From Magnetococcales bacterium (GTDB lineage Bacteria; Pseudomonadota; Magnetococcia; Magnetococcales; UBA8363), in contig JADGCV010000025.1 in assembly GCA_015228815.1 (NCBI GenBank), positions 1 to 64,000 of the forward strand: DNA of 64,000 nucleotides, in the 5' to 3' direction. The notes below the pieces were generated by a model. It did not search any database, was not told the DNA's origin, and saw nothing but the letters and a program-made list of their open reading frames with translations. The translations under genes were made by a program, and so were the position numbers. Every line of letters starts with the position of its first letter. Position 1 is the first letter of the stretch. Positions 37,083 through 49,980 of this stretch are shown here, piece by piece.

Positions 37083-38243
37083 ATGGAACGAGACATGGAG
37101 ACAATCTACCGCGCCATCGGACTCATGTCAGGAACATCGGCGGATGGCGTCGATGCAGTCCTGCTCGAAACCGACGGAACCACGGCACCGCGAGTTTTGG
37201 CCCATGCCCCCCTCCCCTACCCCGATCCCCTGCGTCGCCGTATCCTGGCCCTCTATGAACCGGCGGACAACGAAGTGGACCGCCTGGGCGTCCTGGATCG
37301 AGATCTGGGAGATTTTTTTGCGACCGCCGCCCTTGAAGTCTGCCGGAAGGGCACGATTTCCCCCCATCAGGTCGATGTCGTGGGAAGCCACGGTCAGACG
37401 GTACGCCATCGTCCCCCGGATTTTTCCATTCAGATCGGCAATCCGTTCATGATCGCCCACCGAACCGGCATTCTGACGATCGCCGATTTCCGCAGAGCCG
37501 ACATGGTACGCGGTGGTGAAGGGGCTCCGTTGGTCCCGTTGTATCATCGACTCCTGTTCGGCGATCCCCGACGCAACACGGCGGTGGTCAATCTGGGTGG
37601 CATCGCCAATGTGTCCGCCTTGCCCATCGCCGGCCCCATCGTCGCTGGAGACACCGGACCCGCCAACACCCTGATCGACCACTGGGCCGAACGGGTCAGC
37701 GATGGCCGCGATCAGTGCGATCGCGATGGATGTCATGCGGCCCAGGGACGGGTCGATCCAGACGCCCTGAAATGGTTGCTGCGCCATCCCTACTTTGAAC
37801 GCGCTTTTCCAAAATCAACCGGCAGGGAAATGTTTGGCGCCCGGTTTTTGGATGAATTTCTCGCCGCCTTCCCGCAAATGGAATCGGTTGACCGTTTCCG
37901 TACCTTGACCCAATTGACGGTGGAAACAGTCGCGACGGCCTGTGAACGCCTTCTTCCCCCCCAACCCGATCGAATGGTCCTTTGTGGCGGTGGCGCCGAC
38001 AATCCGGTCATCGTGGCGGCCCTGAAGGAGCGGATGGCTCCAGCCGAAGTGGTGTCAAGCAGCAGCCTGGGTGTCGATACCGCTTTTCTCGAAGCGGAAG
38101 CCTTCGCCTGGTTTGCAGTCCGGACCTTGATCGGACACGCCTCGAACCTGCCCGAAGCCACAGGCGCGGATGGACCGGCCATCCTGGGTTCGATCCATGT
38201 CCCCGGGCCGGGGTATCGATGCCAGAAGGTGTTACAATTTTGA
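37083..38243 (+). CDS. anmK: Anhydro-N-acetylmuramic acid kinase
   Basis: Phosphorylates and opens 1,6-anhydro-MurNAc to MurNAc-6-P in peptidoglycan recycling. 386 residues, slightly longer than E. coli AnmK (about 369). Motifs: [15 protein letters not shown] at the N-terminus, [31 protein letters not shown] and [11 protein letters not shown]. The start could be 37083 or the ATG four codons later at 37095. The small insertion with several Asp/Cys ([15 protein letters not shown]) is a lineage feature. Divergent from tyrS, and a terminator-like repeat follows its stop. Confidence 0.95.
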
Positions 38244-39913: not shown

Positions 39914-40774
39914 TCACTGTTTCAAAGTATCGCCAAAAAACACCTCATGGGGAAAATGACCGATCCAGTCCGGATCGGAAAGGGTCCCGGGAAATCCGGG
40001 CAGCCCAAGGATTCTACGCATGCGATAAAGGGCAAGTATTTTGCTCAGTTGCAGGACGTAACGCCATGGAACAACCGTCGAAGCCACGTCCGAATCATGC
40101 CAGTGCAAGGGGATCTCGACGATGCGAACCCCTGGCGTCCGATACATCAAAATATTCAGCATTGGATTGAATTGCAGATTCGAGGTCAGATTGGCAAAAG
40201 GAATCCGACGCAACAGTTCACTCTTGATCATCATGATCCCCGTACCCGCGTCGGACATGCGAACCCCTGCCAGGAGTGTCGTCAACAGGTTGAAAAACAG
40301 ATTGCCCCAGATCCGCTTTCGGTCATATCCGCGCAAATCGGATCCCGCCACAAAGCGGCTGGCCACGATCAGATCCCAGTGTTTTTCCAGGCAGGCACGT
40401 TGAATGAATCCGCCGGCAATCTGTTCGTTGTCCCCCTGTCCATCGCTGTGAAGAATCATGAAGGCATCGTGCCCCCGGTTCAATACATGCGCAATCCCCA
40501 CCTTGAGACTGCCACCAAGACCAAAATTACGCTTGTTGTCGATTACCGTCAAGCGCCCCCCAAGCCCATCCTTTTCCCCCTGCATGGCGCGAACGGTTGC
40601 CAAGGTTTCGTCCTGGCTGTGGTTGTTGATGAACACGATTTCGGCAACGGCATCGAGCGTCGCTGGCGAAAAATTACCCAAAGCTTGGCGCACCGTGCTT
40701 GCGACATTGTATCCCGGCATCACAATCGCGAGGGTTTGGCAACCCGGCCCGACTGGAGGAAAAGCAGGTTCCAT
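39914..40774 (-). CDS. Family 2 glycosyltransferase (DPM1/GtrB-like)
   Basis: 286 residues with a GT-A fold: LAIVMPGYNVASTVRQAL at the N-terminus, EIVFINNHSQDETL, then ILHSDGQGD where the family usually has DADGQ or similar, and a conserved late region MSDAGTGIMMIKSELL. The form resembles polyprenyl-phosphate sugar transferases but no C-terminal membrane segments are seen, so it may use another acceptor. Last gene of the eight-gene run, starting 6 bases after the NTF2-like gene. The His-Ser in the metal motif is unusual. Confidence 0.82.
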   Translation of the reverse strand: MEPAFPPVGPGCQTLAIVMPGYNVASTVRQALGNFSPATLDAVAEIVFINNHSQDETLATVRAMQGEKDGLGGRLTVIDNKRNFGLGGSLKVGIAHVLNRGHDAFMILHSDGQGDNEQIAGGFIQRACLEKHWDLIVASRFVAGSDLRGYDRKRIWGNLFFNLLTTLLAGVRMSDAGTGIMMIKSELLRRIPFANLTSNLQFNPMLNILMYRTPGVRIVEIPLHWHDSDVASTVVPWRYVLQLSKILALYRMRRILGLPGFPGTLSDPDWIGHFPHEVFFGDTLKQ

Positions 40775-40780
40775 GGACCC

Positions 40781-41113
40781 TTATCCTTTGTAGGCGCGGA
40801 TGGAACGGATGACTCCCGTTTCATCAAACGTGATCACATCCACCACTTTCAGCCGCAAAGCCCCACGGTTCAACAGGATTTCCAATTCCCCAACCACCGT
40901 CGATCCGGCCTCGTGCAGATGAAGAAGGTTGACCTTGATTTCCTCGAAGGATTCGAACACCCCCCGATCAAGGGCCAGCACGGCATCGCGACCCTGAACA
41001 TGATGTTCCCAGTCGGTCACTACCACCCCGGGATGGAACATCCGCGCCAGGACATCGATGTCCTTGCGTGCAAACGCCTGGAAATAATTGTTTGCCAGTT
41101 TGGAATAATCCAT
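40781..41113 (-). CDS. NTF2/SnoaL-like small protein
   Basis: 110 residues with a cone-shaped NTF2-like fold: an N-terminal helix set (YSKLANNYFQAFARKDIDVLA), then MFHPGVVVTDWEHHVQGRDAVL, and strands ending VVDVITFDETGVIRSIRAYKG. Members bind small ligands or act as isomerases, cyclases and hydrolases; function here is unknown. It lies 5 bases after the methyltransferase and 6 before the glycosyltransferase, which suggests a step on the operon's sugar or a fidelity role. Confidence 0.78.
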   Translation of the reverse strand: MDYSKLANNYFQAFARKDIDVLARMFHPGVVVTDWEHHVQGRDAVLALDRGVFESFEEIKVNLLHLHEAGSTVVGELEILLNRGALRLKVVDVITFDETGVIRSIRAYKG

Positions 41114-41118
41114 GATTT

Positions 41119-42045
41119 TCAGGCCCCTCGTTCAGGTCGTTTGACGGCCAACAATGTAATCCGTTTCTGCGGAATCCGGTCCATCCCACGAACGACCCGA
41201 AAATCCTGGCACCATTCTTCATAAGCGGACCTTGGGGTTCCGATTTCATGATACAACGTGTATCGCAAATTTTCGAACAGGGCGCGATATTCACTCAGGG
41301 TCATGTATTGATGAATTTCCATCCGCTCGGTAGCCCAGCGTGCTTCGTCCTTGTTTTTGATTTTGTTGTATTGCGTCAACAAGATACAGAAGTCACGGGC
41401 ATTGATGGCAAACCGGTTGGAATCCAGCCATTGGCAAGGAATGTGGCGCGTGGCATATTCGGCAAAAAAACGCACCAGGGCCTGTTTCACCGCCGCATGC
41501 AACACTTCGACCTCGACAGTCCCGTTCTCTTCGCACAACACATTGTCGGTAATCACGATTCCCCCTCCCGGATTGACCACCTGGGAAATCCGGGTCACGG
41601 CCTTTTCCACCGCCTTCATGCCCCGTTGATGATCCACCGGACGTTCCATATCCAGCTCGGGCCTGCCATGAAACGAATAGACCTCATGCAACATGTCGAG
41701 AAAAAAAACCAGATCGAAGCGACCCTTCACCGGCGATGACAGAATGTCCGCCACCTGAAAATCGATGCCCGCACCCTGATTTTTTTGTCGCATGCGTTGA
41801 ATGATGTGTTCATCGTAATCCAGAAAGGTCACGGAAGAAGCCCGGGTCCGATCCCGAAACGCAAGGATGAACGCACTCGAACCACATCCGATATCCAACA
41901 AAGCGCCGCCTGAAAGTTCCAGATGCTCATGCACCAGTTTTTCGATCCACGCCTCCTTGTAACGACCGGTGGTGCCATTGACCAGGTCGTCCCAGTAGGC
42001 GCTTTGTTTGGTGCGTTTATGCTGGTTGGAAAAAGAGTTGTCCAT
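41119..42045 (-). CDS. SAM-dependent class I methyltransferase
   Basis: 308 residues. The SAM motif ALLDIGCGSSAFILAF lies near residues 52-68, followed by VTFLDYDEHIIQRMR (acidic residue for the ribose hydroxyls) and FDLVFFLDMLHEVY. The C-terminal part is not typical of small-molecule methyltransferases and ends basic. It overlaps the nucleotidyltransferase-kinase gene by 29 bases. Given context, a sugar or sugar-nucleotide O- or N-methyltransferase is the simplest inference. Confidence 0.82.
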   Translation of the reverse strand: MDNSFSNQHKRTKQSAYWDDLVNGTTGRYKEAWIEKLVHEHLELSGGALLDIGCGSSAFILAFRDRTRASSVTFLDYDEHIIQRMRQKNQGAGIDFQVADILSSPVKGRFDLVFFLDMLHEVYSFHGRPELDMERPVDHQRGMKAVEKAVTRISQVVNPGGGIVITDNVLCEENGTVEVEVLHAAVKQALVRFFAEYATRHIPCQWLDSNRFAINARDFCILLTQYNKIKNKDEARWATERMEIHQYMTLSEYRALFENLRYTLYHEIGTPRSAYEEWCQDFRVVRGMDRIPQKRITLLAVKRPERGA

Positions 42046-43603
42046 GATCCTGATCGGCCATTCCCTGAAGGAGATAACGTCCCAGATGGTAGAGATAGGT
42101 TGCCATCACATCATCGTAAAGTGGCGCCATGTTCAAAAAGATCAACGCATCGATGATCCTGATCCGGGCAAGATCATATCCACGACGCTTCACGAATTCC
42201 TCGAACGCCATCATGGCATCCCATTGACTGAAGTCCATCCGGTGTTCCAGACGAACGCCCCCCTCCGACCAGGTCCATTCGTACCCGCCCCCGTCCATGA
42301 CCGCGACACTCAATTCCAGGGTATGAAGAAACTTGGCCAGGTCGTAGTGGCAATCACCGACATGAACCAACGGTCCGAACCCGTCGCGCCAATCGATGAG
42401 GCGATAGCTTCCCGTCGCATCGATCAAAATATTGTCCCCATGGAGGTCGCCGTGATACCCCGAGGCCACCCCGGAATCGTAAAACTTTGGCAGCAACCGT
42501 GCCACCAGTGTCCGTACCGGTTGACAGGGACGATCATTGATCCGCACATCGCGGTTCGCCTCGTGTTCTGGAAAGCGTTTGTCATACGCGGCCAGTCTGA
42601 GAAGTGTTTTTTCACCATAAAATTCCTTGCACGCCTGGTACAGATCGACCGATTCCGCCTGCGCGGGACGCCACAAGGATGTTTCGGCCCACTCCAGAAA
42701 GTGGCGGATGGTGGCATGGTTCAATCTTGAGGAAAACAAACGGGCGTCAGCGACATACCTCATGCTGAAGAAACAGCCCCGCGTTTCCAAAACCTCGACG
42801 AACGCCGCGCTCTGGCCCTGGCCCCGTTCAAATCGCTTTCTCGCCAAACCCGGAGGTTTGAAATATTTGATGATCCGATCATCGATGCGATAGGTGATGT
42901 CGGTGGTTTTTCCATGAAACGTGAAATTTTTTTCAAACCGGTCCAGCGCCTGACGATAACTTTCGGCAGTGCCGGTATCCACCCATTCGACGGAAACGCC
43001 CCGCAACCCATGGGGAATCAATCCCGCCAGCCCCTGATTGACCTGTTTTTCCCCGCGATGCAAGGTGGAATCATGTTGCAACGCCTCCCAGAACGGCTGG
43101 AAATCCCGGACAAAGGCCAAACCGACAAAGGCCTGCCGCGAGCGCATCCCCCCGTTTTCCACGGCAATGACCTGCCGTTGCCGATCCAGAACGACGGTAC
43201 AAAACCTTTCCGGATGATCGACCTCCCGGATCCCCAGCCAATTTTCATCACCAGCCGGGAGCGGTCCGGTCACGATGGTATCGCAGGCAACGAAATAAAA
43301 AGGCTCCTGCAACCGATGACGGCATTCGTACAACGATTGTCCCGGTCCCGAGCCTGGACCTGTGTATTGTTGAACGGTCACGATTTCCAGATTCAGCGAC
43401 GGGTGGGCAAGCGCCAGATAATCATGAATGATCTCGCCACTCCCTGGGGCAACCGCAACCACGTAGGTCAAATGTTCGCCCAAGGCACGGATGATGTGCG
43501 ACAGGACCGCCCGGTTGCCCAGCGGCAACAGCCCCTTGTGGACCACCTCGCCCATTGGTCCCATCCGTTTTCCCTGTCCCGCCGCCAGGATGCACACGTT
43601 CAT
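42017..43603 (-). CDS. Sugar nucleotidyltransferase-kinase fusion protein
   Basis: 528 residues, two domains. Residues 1-230 are a nucleotidyltransferase: ILAAGQGKRMGPMGEVVHKGLLPLGN carries the nucleotide-binding loop (key run AAGQGKRMG and the lysine of HKGLLPLG), and FVACDTIVTG the metal Asp. Residues about 240-520 resemble APH/choline-kinase-type phosphotransferases: SGYHGDLHGDNILID (catalytic Asp and Asn) and YRLIDWRDGFG (metal Asp). Like the MurU/AmgK or HddA/HddC pairs fused, it could first phosphorylate a free sugar or alcohol and then transfer a nucleotide. Starts 3 bases after the cupin gene. Confidence 0.82.
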   Translation of the reverse strand: MNVCILAAGQGKRMGPMGEVVHKGLLPLGNRAVLSHIIRALGEHLTYVVAVAPGSGEIIHDYLALAHPSLNLEIVTVQQYTGPGSGPGQSLYECRHRLQEPFYFVACDTIVTGPLPAGDENWLGIREVDHPERFCTVVLDRQRQVIAVENGGMRSRQAFVGLAFVRDFQPFWEALQHDSTLHRGEKQVNQGLAGLIPHGLRGVSVEWVDTGTAESYRQALDRFEKNFTFHGKTTDITYRIDDRIIKYFKPPGLARKRFERGQGQSAAFVEVLETRGCFFSMRYVADARLFSSRLNHATIRHFLEWAETSLWRPAQAESVDLYQACKEFYGEKTLLRLAAYDKRFPEHEANRDVRINDRPCQPVRTLVARLLPKFYDSGVASGYHGDLHGDNILIDATGSYRLIDWRDGFGPLVHVGDCHYDLAKFLHTLELSVAVMDGGGYEWTWSEGGVRLEHRMDFSQWDAMMAFEEFVKRRGYDLARIRIIDALIFLNMAPLYDDVMATYLYHLGRYLLQGMADQDHGQLFFQPA

Positions 43604-43606
43604 CGA

Positions 43607-43975
43607 TCAAACCCTGTTATAATCGTCGGCATGACGGATGACATCATGCAGCTGCGGTGTCGAAACCTCGTACAACGTGCAATCGGCAAGCACGGTCACC
43701 CGATGCAGGACACCCGGATTCAAATGATAGGCCTCGTTGGGACCATAATCCCGGACTTCCAGTCGTGTCACATCGTCACCGATTTCCAACCGGATCGACC
43801 CGGAGTGGACAAAGATGGTCTCCACCTTTTTTTCATGCGATTGCAACGAGGAGCGGGTTCCGGCGACCATTTCGATTCTCTTGAAGGCATAATGTTCATT
43901 GCATGCCACCAGTTTTTCCCGTCCCCATGGTTTCTCCACCGTGGGCATCCGACTGATCAAGACATGCTGATGCAT
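43607..43975 (-). CDS. Cupin (mannose-6-phosphate isomerase type II C-terminal-like)
   Basis: 122 residues, one cupin barrel. The start region VEKPWGREKLVACNEHYAFKRIEM and the metal motif SSLQSHEKKVETIFVHSGSIRLEIG (His and Glu ligands; key run QSHEKKVETIFVHSG), with the second motif YHLNPGVLHRVTV, fit sugar-phosphate isomerase cupins such as ManC's C-terminal domain. A stand-alone domain beside a nucleotidyltransferase is a common pairing in nucleotide-sugar pathways, where it isomerises the sugar phosphate. Confidence 0.83.
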   Translation of the reverse strand: MHQHVLISRMPTVEKPWGREKLVACNEHYAFKRIEMVAGTRSSLQSHEKKVETIFVHSGSIRLEIGDDVTRLEVRDYGPNEAYHLNPGVLHRVTVLADCTLYEVSTPQLHDVIRHADDYNRV

Positions 43976-44001
43976 GATCCCATCCTCTGCGAATGTTCGA
44001 T

Positions 44002-44829
44002 TTATATTCTGTATTTACGGTATTGGGGAAACAGCTTGAAAAAAAGATCATAGAAACCCTTGGAATAAAGTTGCATGTTCCACCGGCTCTTGAATCCATA
44101 CTTGCGCCGCATCCACAATTCTCCCTCCGCGACCGCCAAGCGAAGATTATCCTGATAGGATTCGGTGTTGATCGTCTCGTGTCGTTCCTTCAGATGAGTC
44201 TCATTCTCCTCCGACCATACCCGGCGGGTCAGAGCCGTTGCCCAATCATTGGCATAGCCCTTGGCAATCAACTCCAATTCCGTTCCATAACCTCTAAAAT
44301 TTGAACCATCGTAAATAAAATTATTATAATCAGGGGTATCGGGCGTCATGACCGACTCGATGAATTCGCGCCGCAAGAGCAAGGCGGTATTCAACACATA
44401 CCAAAAATAAAGGGTTGTCTGTTCCTTCAATAGAAACCATTCGCCCCAGTATTTCGAACACGGCGACAAAATTCCGACCCGGGGATGTTTTTCGAGTTCG
44501 TCCAACAATGCTTCGAGGTACGGACTTTCATCGAATTCGGTATCATTGGTAAGCAGAAAGAAAAAATCGTAGGAAGAAAATTTTCCCTCTTCCCACAATC
44601 GCGTCAGACCATAATTGAATCCCCGAGGAGTCCGCAATCCTTCCCGGCGCGCCTGATCCCAACGGGCATGCCAGGAATGGTTTCGTGCCAGTTTGTCATC
44701 ATCGGACCCTGCTTCGACAATGTATACATCGGTAAGGTGTCCATTGTTTCTGACCAGGGAATCATAAAGTTTGTCGGTCACTTCCGGAAGGTTCCGGTTC
44801 AGAATGATCGTCGCGGTCTTTTTCATCAA
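44002..44829 (-). CDS. Family 2-like glycosyltransferase
   Basis: 275 residues with a GT-A-like N-terminus: TATIILNRNLPEVTDKLYDS, VYIVEAGSDDDK and LLTNDTEFDES, where TNDTEF takes the place of the metal-binding DxD motif. The acceptor region includes the aromatic stretch YWGEWFLLKEQTTLYFWYVL. The C-terminal 40 residues are basic and aromatic, perhaps for membrane association. Its ATG overlaps the stop of the GatZ/KbaZ-like gene (ATGA). The region is less GC-rich than its neighbours. Confidence 0.82.
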   Translation of the reverse strand: MMKKTATIILNRNLPEVTDKLYDSLVRNNGHLTDVYIVEAGSDDDKLARNHSWHARWDQARREGLRTPRGFNYGLTRLWEEGKFSSYDFFFLLTNDTEFDESPYLEALLDELEKHPRVGILSPCSKYWGEWFLLKEQTTLYFWYVLNTALLLRREFIESVMTPDTPDYNNFIYDGSNFRGYGTELELIAKGYANDWATALTRRVWSEENETHLKERHETINTESYQDNLRLAVAEGELWMRRKYGFKSRWNMQLYSKGFYDLFFKLFPQYRKYRI

Positions 44830-45986
44830 GGCCCCGTCAAATGAAAGAATTTCATGTAGCGGAACAGCGTCTTTTTGACCTCGTTTTTCAGGATATCATC
44901 GATGCGGATGTTGGGAAGCCTGGATTGAACCCTGTTCTTGATATCGATACACACGGGATCGGAAAAGACATAATGTCCGGCAATGATGGCGCGTTGGGTA
45001 TCGTCGGCAGAGGTCTGGTCCATCATCCATTTCGCCCATTTTCCGGAACGGAGGGCCAGTTCCAGGAAGGCATCGCATTCCTCGTACAGGGCATGGCGCC
45101 GCATCAACTGGACGAAAGCCCTGGTTTCGGCGACACCAAATTCCGGGGCCACATTGGCGGCATGGATGCCCAGCTTGGGATGCCAGGAAAGCGCCTCGTC
45201 GGACAGATAATCGGCATTGTGTTCCTTGAGCCAGACCCCATGGCGATCACACAGATCGACGATTCGCGGTACCTGAATCCCTGCGGGCAGTTCATAAGGA
45301 AGGCGTATCGGGGATTCGAAGGACCCCACATTCCGGGTTTCCATGACCCGGGTGCCGGTTTGGGAAACGACGAAAGTTGGAAAGGGTAGATTGTTTTTCT
45401 TGCAAAATGTTTTGACCTCGTTCAAAACATAAGCCAGATAATCGATATGATGGGTCGCGCCGCTTTGTTCCTCGGTGCCGATTTCGAACAGAATTTTGCG
45501 CCGATGGTCCTGAGCGACGCTCCAGCAATATTCATAAAGCTCGAAGATACGCTGCAATACCTCATCGACGTCAGGTTCGCCGTGTATATCGATGCTGGGA
45601 TCGATATGGATGAGGTCAAAGCCCGATTCGATATCGGCCTTGAACGATTTCTTGGCGGAATCCATCGCCTGACGCAAACTCAAACCTGCTTTTCGTTCCT
45701 GGTCGTTCTGCCACGGCCCACCGTGGTCCCTGGCAAGGATGACACGCCCCTTCTTGTCCTGACCGATGACATATTCGGCAAAACGCCGTGTGGACCAACG
45801 ATTGACATAACCCCCGCCGAAATCATCGGCATCGATCTGCCGGCGACTGGCCACCAGCATGATGAGGGAATCATGCTCGTTGGCCAGTTCAATGGCGGCA
45901 TCGACGCAATTGAGGCTCATCGGACCGACACCCAGCAACGTGCAACGACGATTGGCGGTAAACGCCTGCAATTTACGCCGAATCAT
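44826..45986 (-). CDS. GatZ/KbaZ-like class II aldolase-associated protein
   Basis: About 386 residues from the ATG at 45986, which overlaps the stop of the phosphatase gene (ATGA); an ATG three codons earlier (45995) is possible. It resembles the non-catalytic subunit of tagatose-1,6-bisphosphate aldolase (GatZ/KbaZ), a TIM-barrel protein: TLLGVGPMSLNCVDAAIELA, ARDHGGPWQ, GFDLIHIDPSIDI, ILFEIGTEEQSGATHH and the segment LKEHNADYLSDEALSWHPKLGIHAANVAPEFG (key run IHAANVAPEFG). No GatY/KbaY catalytic partner is in the window, so it may itself be an aldolase or epimerase on the pathway sugar. Confidence 0.8.
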   Translation of the reverse strand: MIRRKLQAFTANRRCTLLGVGPMSLNCVDAAIELANEHDSLIMLVASRRQIDADDFGGGYVNRWSTRRFAEYVIGQDKKGRVILARDHGGPWQNDQERKAGLSLRQAMDSAKKSFKADIESGFDLIHIDPSIDIHGEPDVDEVLQRIFELYEYCWSVAQDHRRKILFEIGTEEQSGATHHIDYLAYVLNEVKTFCKKNNLPFPTFVVSQTGTRVMETRNVGSFESPIRLPYELPAGIQVPRIVDLCDRHGVWLKEHNADYLSDEALSWHPKLGIHAANVAPEFGVAETRAFVQLMRRHALYEECDAFLELALRSGKWAKWMMDQTSADDTQRAIIAGHYVFSDPVCIDIKNRVQSRLPNIRIDDILKNEVKKTLFRYMKFFHLTGP

Positions 45987-46516
45987 ACCGCCCATTCCCC
46001 CGAGAGTTTGATCTGTTCATTGGGAAGGGCCTCGGGATTGTAGGGTTCGAAAAATTTTTCCAACACATGCAGACAGGCCTCCGCCACGGCACGGTTTCCC
46101 CCGGTACGACGGGTCACATAATGGGCATGCTCGATGGCAAGGGGATCGGCATCCGCGGTGGCAATGGCATAGGCGACCTTCTTCATGACGTAATGATCAA
46201 AAATTCCATCACCCATGTAGATGACCTGATCCAAAGCATACCGTTGGGCAATCCATTCGACACGGCGGATGGTACTGACCAGGTGGAGCGGGAAGTGCAT
46301 GTCATCCTGGATTCTTTTTTTGGTGATTTCAAATCCTTTACGATCTCCGGTAACAAAGCACACCTCGATATAAGGCTTGAGCAGGGAAAGACCGTCATTG
46401 TCATCGGGACCGAATTGTTTCATTATCTTTCCATCCCTGGAATAGAAAAACTTTCCATCCGTCATGACGCCATCGACATCGAGTATGAACACGTTCACGT
46501 TCGGTTCTTCTTTCAT
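45983..46516 (-). CDS. KdsC-like HAD phosphatase
   Basis: About 177 residues from the ATG at 46516; a TTG two codons upstream is possible. HAD subfamily motifs: FILDVDGVMTDGKFF with the two catalytic Asp, FVTGDRKG with the Thr, the conserved Lys in RIQDD...HLVSTIRRVEWI, and YMGDGIFDHYVMKKV with the acidic motif IV. KdsC and related enzymes remove phosphate from 9- or 8-carbon sugar acids. The usual KdsC run ...RDGxG is replaced here by PDDNDGLSLL, which points to another substrate. First gene of the eight-gene operon. Confidence 0.85.
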   Translation of the reverse strand: MKEEPNVNVFILDVDGVMTDGKFFYSRDGKIMKQFGPDDNDGLSLLKPYIEVCFVTGDRKGFEITKKRIQDDMHFPLHLVSTIRRVEWIAQRYALDQVIYMGDGIFDHYVMKKVAYAIATADADPLAIEHAHYVTRRTGGNRAVAEACLHVLEKFFEPYNPEALPNEQIKLSGEWAV

Positions 46517-46710: not shown

Positions 46711-47697
46711 ATGATCGAAATTTCCCAACCTCATGACAGCCTGTTCAAGATTCTCCTGTCGTCACCAGAAACGGCGGGTGCCTTGTTGCGCGAGCGGCTG
46801 CCACCCGAGGTAGCCAGGCTCCTGGCTCCCGAACCGCCACTATTGGTCGAAGGGACCTTTGTCGAGGAGAACCTGCGCTCTTGTTATTCCGACCGCCTGT
46901 TCCAGGCCCGGACGATCACCGGCAAGCCCGTGTTGTTCTATGTCCTGATCGAGCATAAAAGTTACCAGGATGATCGGGTCGGCTGGCAGCTTTTTCGTGG
47001 AATTTCAGGTTTTTTAGAACAAAAGGCCCGGGAGGATGGAAACTGGCAACGGCTTCCGGCGGTGCTGCCCCTGCTCGTTTATCATGGCGAAAAGGAATGG
47101 CGGTCATCAAATGAATTCCTGAGCCTGATCGATGCCGACGCAGCCATGCATCCCTGGCTTGTGAACTTTCGGTTCGCGATGGTCGATCTGGGTCCTATTC
47201 CGGACCGGGAGCTTTCCCGGCATGCCCATTTGCGGGTCGGTTTGATGGTGCTCAAATATGGCACCCGTGACCCGGAAACCCAGATGGCCGCGCTGGAGGA
47301 AATCATCTCCATCCTGGTAGAAACACCGGAACTCCAGTTTTCGGTGTTGTTGTATCTGTTGACGACATTCTCCCGCCTGGACGAAACATCCGTGCGGCAA
47401 ATCGTGCGCCGTGTCAAACCCGAGGAGGAACTGAACATGATGTCCATCTTTGCACAGGAACATTTCACCAAAGGGCTACAGGAAGGCGAGCGGAAAGGGC
47501 TACAGGAAGGCGAGCGGAAAGGGCTACAGGAAGGCGAAGCAACGTCGCTACGCCGTTTGCTGCAACGCCGTTTCGGGCCGTTGCCGGAATGGGCCACTAC
47601 CCGGATTGCCAAAGCCAACATCGCAACCCTTGAAACATGGATCGACCGTGTCCTGGATGCCCGAACCCTGGAAGAGGCGTTGGCGCTTCGGAATTGA
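46711..47697 (+). CDS. Rpn-family PD-(D/E)XK nuclease (transposase_31-like)
   Basis: 328 residues. Rpn/YhgA-like proteins are nucleases that raise recombination in E. coli and are often scored as putative transposases; they are also linked to phage defence. Residues 1-200 carry the family core: PHDSLFKILLSSPETAGALL, SCYSDRLFQARTITGKPVLFYVLIEHKSYQDD with the E-x-K motif (EHK), VYHGEKEWR-like LLVYHGEKEW. The region about 255-277 has GLQEGERK repeated nearly three times; the last 45 residues match the DUF4351-like tail. Orientation is opposite to both neighbours, as expected for an inserted gene. Confidence 0.85.
   Translation: MIEISQPHDSLFKILLSSPETAGALLRERLPPEVARLLAPEPPLLVEGTFVEENLRSCYSDRLFQARTITGKPVLFYVLIEHKSYQDDRVGWQLFRGISGFLEQKAREDGNWQRLPAVLPLLVYHGEKEWRSSNEFLSLIDADAAMHPWLVNFRFAMVDLGPIPDRELSRHAHLRVGLMVLKYGTRDPETQMAALEEIISILVETPELQFSVLLYLLTTFSRLDETSVRQIVRRVKPEEELNMMSIFAQEHFTKGLQEGERKGLQEGERKGLQEGEATSLRRLLQRRFGPLPEWATTRIAKANIATLETWIDRVLDARTLEEALALRN
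47473..47538 (+). repeat. 24-bp tandem repeat within the Rpn-type gene
   Basis: Two full identical 24-base units (47473-47496, 47497-47520) and a third of 18 bases (47521-47538). They encode GLQEGERK repeats. A multiple of three in length keeps the frame open, so copy number can change without destroying the gene. Confidence 0.9.
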
Positions 47698-47757: not shown

Positions 47758-49980
47758 TCAATGCCGATCCTGCCTGATGACCCGGGCCAACGACAATCCA
47801 TTCTGAAACGTCATCATGACCTCATGAGGTCCCGGTTCCAGCGCGACCCCACGGTACAGATGATCCACCGGGAACAGCTTTTGTTCTCTGCCATCGACCC
47901 AGACACGCCACAACACGTCATAGTTGTCCGTCAATACCAGAATGGATGACGCCTCGGCGCGGCACCGGATCCGTACCCGGTCGGGACGGGGATAAAAAAC
48001 ATGTGCCTTGAACCCCGCCAATGGCGCCCGATAGCGGGATGGATTCTCGATCACCCCCTCCTCGACCAGTCCAATCCGGGAAAGTTCGGACACCGGCATC
48101 CCTTCCAAAGTATCAAGCAAAGCGGTCTGATCCGAAAACGTCCTCACCTGTCCCACCATGAACACCCGAGGCAAAACGGAAATGTTTTCGTAGATATGGA
48201 GTGCCTGTGGTGGCAGGTCTCCATGCAATGCCCGCCAAATCATCTCCCGTTTCCGGAACCCTTCCCATTTTCCACGCACCTTTTTTTCTTCCACGGGATC
48301 ATGAACAAGGCGCAGCTCGGGATGGCTCAAGGGCCAATGGGAAAAAATAAAACGAGTATTGGATAATGACAGGAGATTGAGCCGATACCATCTTGAAAAA
48401 TCAATGGGATCAGGATTGGCCACGGGAATCATCGCCTGACTTCTGTCGAAGCCATGAGAAGCGGGCGTGAAAAGATATTGGTAGAATTTTATTTTTTCTC
48501 CCAAAACGGGGCGCTCCTCGATGACTTTTAAAATGACCCGCCGCCAATATTGATAAAGGCGTTGGGGATACATGCGATAAAAGCCGTCGATCGATGCAAA
48601 ACCATAGACAAGTTGATAATTGGGATAAAAATTATGCCCTGAGGCACTGCTGGTGGTCGCACCATGGGCAACAAGGCTTGCGACACGAAACGGTGGATCA
48701 TTCCTGGTTTTCTCAGCCAGTTCCAGTAACGCAGGATTTTCAAAAATGGCCTGATAATTGTCGGAATGGATACGCCGGGCAAGATTGACCACGACTGCCT
48801 GGCCCGCATGCACGACCAATAAAAAACATGCCGTCAAGATCATCCATTCCATTCTTGATTTCCATACGGTCGGCACAAGGCCCGATTCCTTGATGCCCTC
48901 CAAAAACCGATGCAATCCGACCGTCACGATGACGACCGTGGAGAAAAATAAAAATTGTTTCAGATCATAAATACTTGCCCCAGTAAATGGGAGTTTTTTT
49001 CCGGACAGAAACAGAAACCATTGGCATACAGGTTGAAACAACAGGAAAAACGAAAAAATCAGGAAGGACCTGCCAAACAATCCGCGGTCGGCGCGGCCAA
49101 GGATCATGCCAAACAACGACAACGACAGAAGAATGATCATTGACATTGGAAAAATATTATTAAAATAATTCCATGTACCATCCAGCATATCGATCAATCC
49201 GGGGTCATCGTTGTCGCGGACAAGGACACGTGCGGAACGAAGCGCAAAGAAAAACAATGCGATGACCTCGGGTGCTTCCATCAACAGGGCGCCACCGGCA
49301 AACAAAAGATAAAAAGGCCAGAGTTGCCGCAACGGAGTCTTGCGCACGACGACAAACCACAATGGCAAGAACAATAAAAAAAAAGAGGTATAATAGGCCG
49401 CCGAAGCCCCAAGACCGACCGCCATCCCCAGAGCCACCGATAAAGCCATGGCGACTTTCCTGGATGACAGACCCAGCAATCGATCGAACAGGTAAAGGTA
49501 CATCGGGGTCGCCGGGGGTCCGAAGGCGTCCATCAACCTCCAGTCATCAGAACTCCAATTATTGAAAGAAAAAATGATACCCCCAAGCAGACTGACGCCA
49601 GGGCTGCAATTCAATCTTCGAAAAAGAAGGTAGGAAAAATATCCGGCGACAAACCGCTGCAACTGCAAGATCAACCCCAGGGCGGCCCAGGGGGGAAGGA
49701 AGAAAAATGGCATGGCCAGCAACAGACTGTCCACCTGATGCGACCACCAGGCTGGCAATCCACCGCTGGCATGTGGATTCCAGAATGTGGCACCATGAAT
49801 CAGAAAATCTCTGGAGGCTATTATTTGCAGCGCAAGATCGGAATCCGCCGCATCGCGAATTCTGAGGTAGGAGCCGGGACCCAAAATCCAATAGACACTG
49901 GAAATGGCCAATGACCAGAGCATCCAGAAAAGAAACCATTTTCCGTTGGTTCCGGAGCGAGTGAAATCCTGTTTCATCAC
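47758..49980 (-). CDS. YfhO-like polytopic membrane protein
   Basis: 740 residues. About twelve hydrophobic segments in the first 430 residues, with a GT-C-like start (DAADSDLALQIIASRDFLIHGATFWNP: acidic residues in the first loop), then a soluble C-terminal part. The late segment SILVLTDNYDVLWRVWVDG matches the recurring S.Y..GW....DG motif of YfhO/bacterial membrane family proteins, which are linked to glycosylation of lipoteichoic acid or surface glycans. It lies beyond the Rpn gene from the glycan operon and is on the same strand, so the nuclease gene may have separated it from that operon. Stop and start are clear. Confidence 0.8.
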   Translation of the reverse strand: MMKQDFTRSGTNGKWFLFWMLWSLAISSVYWILGPGSYLRIRDAADSDLALQIIASRDFLIHGATFWNPHASGGLPAWWSHQVDSLLLAMPFFFLPPWAALGLILQLQRFVAGYFSYLLFRRLNCSPGVSLLGGIIFSFNNWSSDDWRLMDAFGPPATPMYLYLFDRLLGLSSRKVAMALSVALGMAVGLGASAAYYTSFFLLFLPLWFVVVRKTPLRQLWPFYLLFAGGALLMEAPEVIALFFFALRSARVLVRDNDDPGLIDMLDGTWNYFNNIFPMSMIILLSLSLFGMILGRADRGLFGRSFLIFSFFLLFQPVCQWFLFLSGKKLPFTGASIYDLKQFLFFSTVVIVTVGLHRFLEGIKESGLVPTVWKSRMEWMILTACFLLVVHAGQAVVVNLARRIHSDNYQAIFENPALLELAEKTRNDPPFRVASLVAHGATTSSASGHNFYPNYQLVYGFASIDGFYRMYPQRLYQYWRRVILKVIEERPVLGEKIKFYQYLFTPASHGFDRSQAMIPVANPDPIDFSRWYRLNLLSLSNTRFIFSHWPLSHPELRLVHDPVEEKKVRGKWEGFRKREMIWRALHGDLPPQALHIYENISVLPRVFMVGQVRTFSDQTALLDTLEGMPVSELSRIGLVEEGVIENPSRYRAPLAGFKAHVFYPRPDRVRIRCRAEASSILVLTDNYDVLWRVWVDGREQKLFPVDHLYRGVALEPGPHEVMMTFQNGLSLARVIRQDRH

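Follow-up and report, generated by a model that had tools for sequence, protein, structure and literature searches.

A conserved five-gene core in Magnetococcales and across bacterial phyla that may encode a nucleotide-sugar pathway beginning with a GatZ-like epimerase

Among the described systems closest to the locus reported here, heptose activation uses HldE, in which a PfkB kinase is fused to an adenylyltransferase, together with the separate HAD phosphatase GmhB and the SIS-type enzyme GmhA. The recycling of N-acetylmuramic acid (MurNAc) uses the APH-type anomeric kinase AmgK followed by the sugar-1-phosphate nucleotidyltransferase MurU, and AlgA/ManC is a mannose-6-phosphate isomerase (PMI) cupin fused to a mannose-1-phosphate guanylyltransferase. 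GatZ and KbaZ of Escherichia coli are C4 epimerases that convert fructose 6-phosphate to tagatose 6-phosphate (PMC11907403). Here, an operon of eight minus-strand genes was analyzed in a Magnetococcales bacterium (assembly GCA_015228815.1, contig JADGCV010000025.1); the window is the whole stretch of DNA analyzed, positions 1 to 64,000 of this contig. Five of the genes form a core that recurs across many phyla: a KdsC-like phosphatase, a GatZ-like protein, a GT-A-fold glycosyltransferase, a PMI-like cupin and a nucleotidyltransferase-kinase fusion. With a probability of about 0.6, the operon encodes a nucleotide-sugar pathway and its transferases, starting with the C4 epimerization of a ketose phosphate.

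Like HldE and GmhB, the locus pairs a kinase-nucleotidyltransferase fusion with a separate HAD phosphatase, but an APH kinase and an RmlA-type nucleotidyltransferase stand in place of the PfkB kinase and the adenylyltransferase, a PMI cupin replaces GmhA, and an epimerase is added. With AmgK and MurU it has in common an APH-type anomeric kinase followed by a sugar-1-phosphate nucleotidyltransferase, whereas here both are fused in one protein that fails the MurU model and has other partner genes. As in AlgA/ManC, a PMI-type cupin is linked with a nucleotidyltransferase, and in one Bdellovibrionales locus (L111, 11128-13443) the fusion is joined to a double cupin in a single polypeptide; unlike AlgA/ManC, the core has no mutase, uses a kinase and a phosphatase, and begins with an epimerase. 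Neither a description of the cluster nor a matching pathway was found in the open-access literature (subscription papers and preprints lay outside the search), in agreement with a preliminary description of this DNA that could match the set to no known pathway. The core is probably a nucleotide-sugar pathway without a matching description, its nearest logic being that of HldE/GmhB and AmgK/MurU but its enzymes belonging to different families.

When 84,980 species genomes were searched with a small GatZ-like alignment, 332 relatives were found, and the best 80 were kept with their flanks; these loci are the closest relatives and not a random sample. Homology searches replaced automatic open reading frame (ORF) calling in high-GC loci because ORF calling gave antisense artefacts there. 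Of the 80 loci, 44 had all five core genes inside 10 kb; these spanned at least 12 phyla, and in 37 of them gene order and strand were the same. Taken singly, the cupin was present in 67 loci, the fusion in 63, the phosphatase in 60 and the GT-A enzyme in 51. Protein identity outside the genus was mostly 45-73% for the phosphatase, 41-62% for the GatZ-like protein, mostly 47-62% for the GT-A enzyme and mostly 22-42% for the fusion, and the 13-bp overlap of the phosphatase and GatZ-like genes was found again in 24 loci. The remaining genes of the operon were much rarer: the methyltransferase type of the window occurred in 3 of the 80 loci, all of them Magnetococcales, homologues of the NTF2-like protein in 11, Prochlorococcus among them, and the family 2 glycosyltransferase (GT2) in 10. 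These three genes are accessory and lie outside the conserved core. The preliminary description had taken the eight genes as one set and had made its reading depend on their occurring together in other genomes; wide co-occurrence was found, for the core of five, and the eight-gene conserved unit was dropped.

Among 398 Pseudomonadota genomes, six had a member of the GatZ-like clade, and exactly these six had the fusion with E below 1e-100; one more genome had a distant fusion only. Seventeen of the 80 loci had no nearby fusion, and in four of these genomes a true fusion was found at a distant site. In a genome from another family of the order (G022), the phosphatase and GatZ-like genes were on one contig and the cupin, fusion, methyltransferase, NTF2-like and GT2 genes on another. 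A quick tree separated the GatZ-like clade from proteins linked to phosphotransferase systems (PTS) with full support; phyla were intermixed within it, and at least six changes were forced for Pseudomonadota alone. This pattern suggests horizontal transfer, each single case being not proven. Plasmid sequences searched for the GT-A enzyme had no match.

The operon itself is real. Its eight ORFs run uninterrupted from the ATG of the first gene at 46516 down to 39914, in the order KdsC-like phosphatase, GatZ-like protein, GT-A glycosyltransferase, cupin, fusion, methyltransferase, NTF2-like protein and GT2. From 5' to 3', the successive junctions are overlaps of 13 and 4 bp, gaps of 26 and 3 bp, an overlap of 29 bp (fusion/methyltransferase), and gaps of 5 and 6 bp; the earlier range of 3 to 26 bases was nearly right, the 29-bp overlap lying outside it, and the minus-strand run was present as first described. 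A genus-mate (G002) had full synteny of the operon with 69-91% protein identity, and ratios of nonsynonymous to synonymous substitution (dN/dS) of 0.05-0.23 between the two indicated purifying selection on all eight genes, with the lowest values (0.05-0.08) in the phosphatase, GatZ-like and GT-A genes. Together with the recurrence of the five-gene core across many phyla, these results show that the operon is more than chance. The complete eight-gene set is confined to a part of a single Magnetococcales genus. The family-level names first given to the proteins were backed by Pfam and NCBIfam, and by AlphaFold2 and Foldseek for the GT-A fold, with scores mostly far under the curated cut-offs of named enzymes.

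The fusion (42017..43603, minus strand; 528 aa) consists of an RmlA-type sugar-1-phosphate nucleotidylyltransferase (residues ~1-230) and an APH-type kinase (~235-528), corresponding to Pfam NTP_transf_3 and APH. The GxGxR...K, metal Asp and WxDTG-type motifs of sugar-1-phosphate nucleotidylyltransferases were present, and G9, G11, R13, K23, D108 and D209 were invariant across 47 homologues. In the APH-type HGD...N...D motif, H384, G385, D386 and D404 were likewise invariant and N391 nearly so. In nearly all loci the fusion was full length (about 520-560 aa) with all catalytic motifs. Structure prediction, a check suggested in the preliminary description, gave a confident AlphaFold2 model (pLDDT 90), the first half of which resembled RmlA in Foldseek (E 6e-16).

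The GatZ-like protein (44826..45995, minus strand; 389 aa), whose gene overlaps that of the phosphatase, is a predicted metal-dependent sugar-phosphate C4 epimerase. It matched the Pfam GatZ_KbaZ-like family with 35 bits and did not pass the curated agaZ_gatZ model (37.5 bits, cut-off 568.8). In E. coli GatZ, the modelled base and metal ligands are D87, H88, E171 and H257, and C20, E44 and K279 are family-specific (PMC11907403). The window protein has D90, H91, E175 and H259 at the first four positions, which were conserved in 81/81, 81/81, 80/81 (E or D) and 81/81 clade members, respectively. The clade is alike in fold family and in its D, H, E, H metal and base residues to GatZ/KbaZ (PF08013; formerly called aldolase chaperones), but differs from them by the changes C20 to G, E44 to I/V and K279 to N in all members with the column present, by having no GatY/KbaY, and by its biosynthetic setting. 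With its base and metal residues retained and the other three altered, the clade probably forms a separate subfamily of catalytic epimerases or aldolases, whose substrate may differ. No GatY-type gene was found in the window operon or among the frequent neighbours of the core loci inspected. The preliminary description had regarded a GatZ-like protein without GatY as an anomaly, which it is not, because GatZ and KbaZ are themselves C4 epimerases (PMC11907403).

The nearest outgroup GatZ-like proteins (L018, L139 and L016) were encoded on Listeria, Enterococcus and Klebsiella plasmids, within PTS operons of the fructose type that also hold a HAD hydrolase and, in two of them, a transaldolase or Fsa. 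These proteins are annotated as non-catalytic aldolase subunits and have intact catalytic residues; they also carry the G, I/V and N changes. Several of the Balneolota GatZ-like genes (L088, L090, L093, L097, L107 and L113), which had no fusion with them, were near SusC/SusD, GMC oxidoreductase or phosphodiesterase-type genes. In Sinorhizobium (L015, 10016-13492) and Amycolatopsis (L127, 9917-12742), the GatZ-like gene adjoined a DegT aminotransferase gene, in Sinorhizobium a cupin gene too, and these loci possibly encode an amino-sugar pathway.

The cupin (43607..43975, minus strand; 122 aa) matched Pfam MannoseP_isomer with 32.9 bits (cut-off 23.6). Its metal set was present: Q45, H47, E52 and H91 were conserved in about 66/69 cupins, as was the tail STPxxxDVxRxxDDxxR, a variant of the DDxxRxxDxYxR-type tail of type II PMI. 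The cupin is probably a PMI-type isomerase, as judged from these residues. The KdsC-like phosphatase (45983..46516, minus strand; 177 aa; dN/dS 0.05) shares with KdsC, the phosphatase of 3-deoxy-D-manno-octulosonate (KDO) 8-phosphate, the HAD family and the catalytic Asp/Thr/GDxxxD motifs (D13, D15, T56, G102-D103 and D107 were kept), but scored 81 bits against a cut-off of 208 with the NCBIfam KdsC model. The altered KdsC motif first noticed in this protein is real: the tail GGRGAVRE, of the KdsC motif GGxGAxRE, was GGxRAVAE in most members, with loss of the Arg equivalent to E. coli KdsC R167. With that Arg lost and a better KdsC candidate (145.7 bits) elsewhere in the same genome, KDO 8-phosphate is an unlikely substrate, and the gene was dropped as the KDO phosphatase of the cell. 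The GT-A enzyme (44002..44829, minus strand; 275 aa) was barely detected by Pfam. Its AlphaFold2 model had a pLDDT of 95, the best Protein Data Bank matches in Foldseek were TarP, SpsA and WrtF at 11-14% identity, and N95-D96, a putative acidic metal site, was invariant.

Three phage sequences carried the set, with the same catalytic residues kept in the GatZ-like proteins. Among viral contigs, the GatZ alignment had three matches and the fusion used by itself none. IMG/VR contig L128 (7491-11023) had the cupin, fusion, KdsC-like and GatZ-like genes, that is, four core genes. L129 (7775-11277) had the fusion, the GatZ-like protein and a small HAD protein, with a KdsC-type gene farther away. 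In Marine virus AG-345-E15 (L161, 5782-8954), genes for a small HAD protein, the cupin, the fusion and a compact GatZ-like protein all overlapped, and the cupin, whose gene directly overlaps that of the fusion, was a canonical PMI domain (103 bits). In the latter two phages the HAD protein adjoining the fusion or GatZ-like gene was unrelated in kind to the KdsC-like phosphatase, suggesting that a dephosphorylation step is required in the pathway. The phage sets with an alternative HAD or PMI protein and the single polypeptide of L111 indicate that isomerization, dephosphorylation, kinase and nucleotidyl transfer steps belong to one pathway.

In L045 (7138-10594), L064 (12044-15211), L099 (12784-15158) and L111, the module was a variant in which the cupin had double length and the fusion was of a second type, often accompanied by a shikimate-dehydrogenase-like protein; in L099 both fusion types were side by side. 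In G007, the second half was on a separate contig and was a variant with a double cupin, fusion, shikimate-dehydrogenase-like protein, GT2 and radical SAM/B12 protein. A radical SAM/B12-binding protein also adjoined GT2 or core genes in several Magnetococcales genomes (L045, 4585-6234; L023, 11554-13074; L049, upstream of 1738). The double-cupin/shikimate-dehydrogenase variant suggests the making of related products.

A route can be proposed from what was observed, namely which genes are present, how they are linked and co-occur, their folds and their catalytic residues; its substrates, order of steps, nucleotide and product are inferred. The GatZ-like enzyme would epimerize a ketose phosphate at C4 by metal-dependent retro-aldol/aldol chemistry, in the simplest case fructose 6-phosphate to tagatose 6-phosphate. 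The cupin would convert the ketose into its aldose isomer (tagatose 6-phosphate into talose 6-phosphate), on the model of PMI, which interconverts fructose and mannose phosphates. The kinase half of the fusion would phosphorylate the anomeric carbon (C1) and the KdsC-like phosphatase would remove the terminal phosphate, in either order. The nucleotidyltransferase half would then make a nucleoside diphosphate (NDP)-sugar, from which the GT-A enzyme would transfer the sugar into a surface glycan. In the window's genus, the sugar or the glycan would probably be methylated, the GT2 enzyme would act as a second glycosyltransferase, and the NTF2-like protein may bind a substrate. NDP-talose is the leading candidate for the product, a guess from the known activities of the families. 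The earlier proposal that the operon makes, activates and transfers a sugar gained support from the catalytic residues kept in every core enzyme and from the wide co-occurrence. It is a tentative and somewhat doubtful further step that this is a new nucleotide-sugar pathway, present in at least 12 phyla (SAR11 and Prochlorococcus included) and also borne by marine phages, in which an aldolase-type C4 epimerase acts first, on a sugar phosphate, and the end product is an activated rare hexose, for example NDP-D-talose.

Several observations weigh against a C4-epimerase-led hexose pathway. All clade members differ from GatZ at C20, E44 and K279, which means that the substrate may be other than fructose 6-phosphate. 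The GatZ-like clade has further uses beyond the fusion-linked pathway, since its members in Balneolota, the candidate phyla radiation, Amycolatopsis and Sinorhizobium had no fusion elsewhere in the genome. Five of the six co-occurring Pseudomonadota genomes belong to one genus, small cupins can be non-catalytic, and the double-cupin/shikimate-dehydrogenase-like variant is ill-suited to a plain hexose route.

The same enzymes might act on sedoheptulose 7-phosphate and give an unusual NDP-heptose, in steps parallel to GmhA/HldE/GmhB. Kinase, phosphatase and nucleotidyltransferase together are the textbook logic of heptose activation, and the epimerase active site differs from that of GatZ at three positions, but the cupin is of the fructose/mannose phosphate isomerase family and not a SIS-type GmhA, no heptose-specific gene was seen conserved with the core, and related GatZ-like genes lie beside fructose-type PTS genes; a heptose product is rather unlikely. 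An activated ketose, tagatose or similar, would arise if epimerization and dephosphorylation gave a free ketose that the fusion then phosphorylated and activated, the cupin being mutarotase-like or regulatory, as small cupins are not always isomerases. Such a pair of steps, epimerization to tagatose 6-phosphate and then dephosphorylation, has been established in E. coli for producing D-tagatose (PMC11907403). A ketose product is considered unlikely, since most cupins keep the tail and metal set of PMI and one phage has a canonical PMI.

That the operon is catabolic or serves salvage rather than glycan synthesis is very unlikely: the nearest outgroups of the GatZ-like clade are in PTS operons and Balneolota members are near SusCD genes, but the glycosyltransferase and nucleotidyltransferase are conserved, genes neighbouring the core loci are of O-antigen/exopolysaccharide type, and the core has no transporter or regulator. 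It is most improbable that the fusion is an AmgK-MurU and the HAD protein a MupP-like phosphatase of MurNAc recycling, although the enzyme classes are the same and an AnmK-like ORF, named by reading of the sequence, lies at 37083-38243 on the opposite strand. The fusion scored 22-24 bits with the MurU model (cut-off 250), against 170.8 bits at another locus of the same genome (C74), and MurNAc recycling requires no GatZ, PMI or glycosyltransferase. This reading was dropped, and of the earlier analogy to AmgK/MurU the functional part stands, the genome having a far better MurU candidate elsewhere.

The accessory genes of the operon encode a class I S-adenosylmethionine-dependent methyltransferase (41119..42045, minus strand; 308 aa; Pfam Methyltransf_31/25/11), an NTF2/SnoaL-like protein (40781..41113, minus strand; 110 aa; Pfam SnoaL_2, 53.8 bits) and the GT2 enzyme (39914..40774, minus strand; 286 aa; Pfam Glycos_transf_2, 41 bits). 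In G022, a homologue of the methyltransferase adjoined the fusion, and a GT2 gene with 56% identity adjoined the cupin-fusion-methyltransferase set. Another, unrelated methyltransferase of ~378 aa was found in 36 loci, usually directly after the fusion. In the window, htpX lies 12 bp downstream of the operon, and none was seen beside the syntenic operons inspected. Scans for promoters and terminators had about as many hits as expected by chance and set no useful operon boundary. Two ORFs lie upstream of the operon: 46711-47697, which has a repeated LQEGERKG stretch and is probably Rpn/PD-(D/E)XK transposase-like, and 47758-49980, which encodes a large DUF6044/YfhO-like membrane protein and in G002 is likewise near the operon.

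Nucleotide-sugar pathways set the surface chemistry of bacteria, and new ones are usually found organism by organism. The core described here occurs in abundant marine bacteria and partly in marine phages. Its small size would allow reconstitution in vitro, and it could bring to light a widespread but so far unassigned component of glycans. GatZ-like proteins, whose present annotations are 'non-catalytic aldolase subunit' or 'tagatose-6-phosphate kinase', would also gain a biosynthetic role. Candidate purposes of the phage-borne set are modification of the virion, the host surface or DNA. In Prochlorococcus, SAR11 and phages, the core makes it possible to test whether surface glycans and phage infection are linked.

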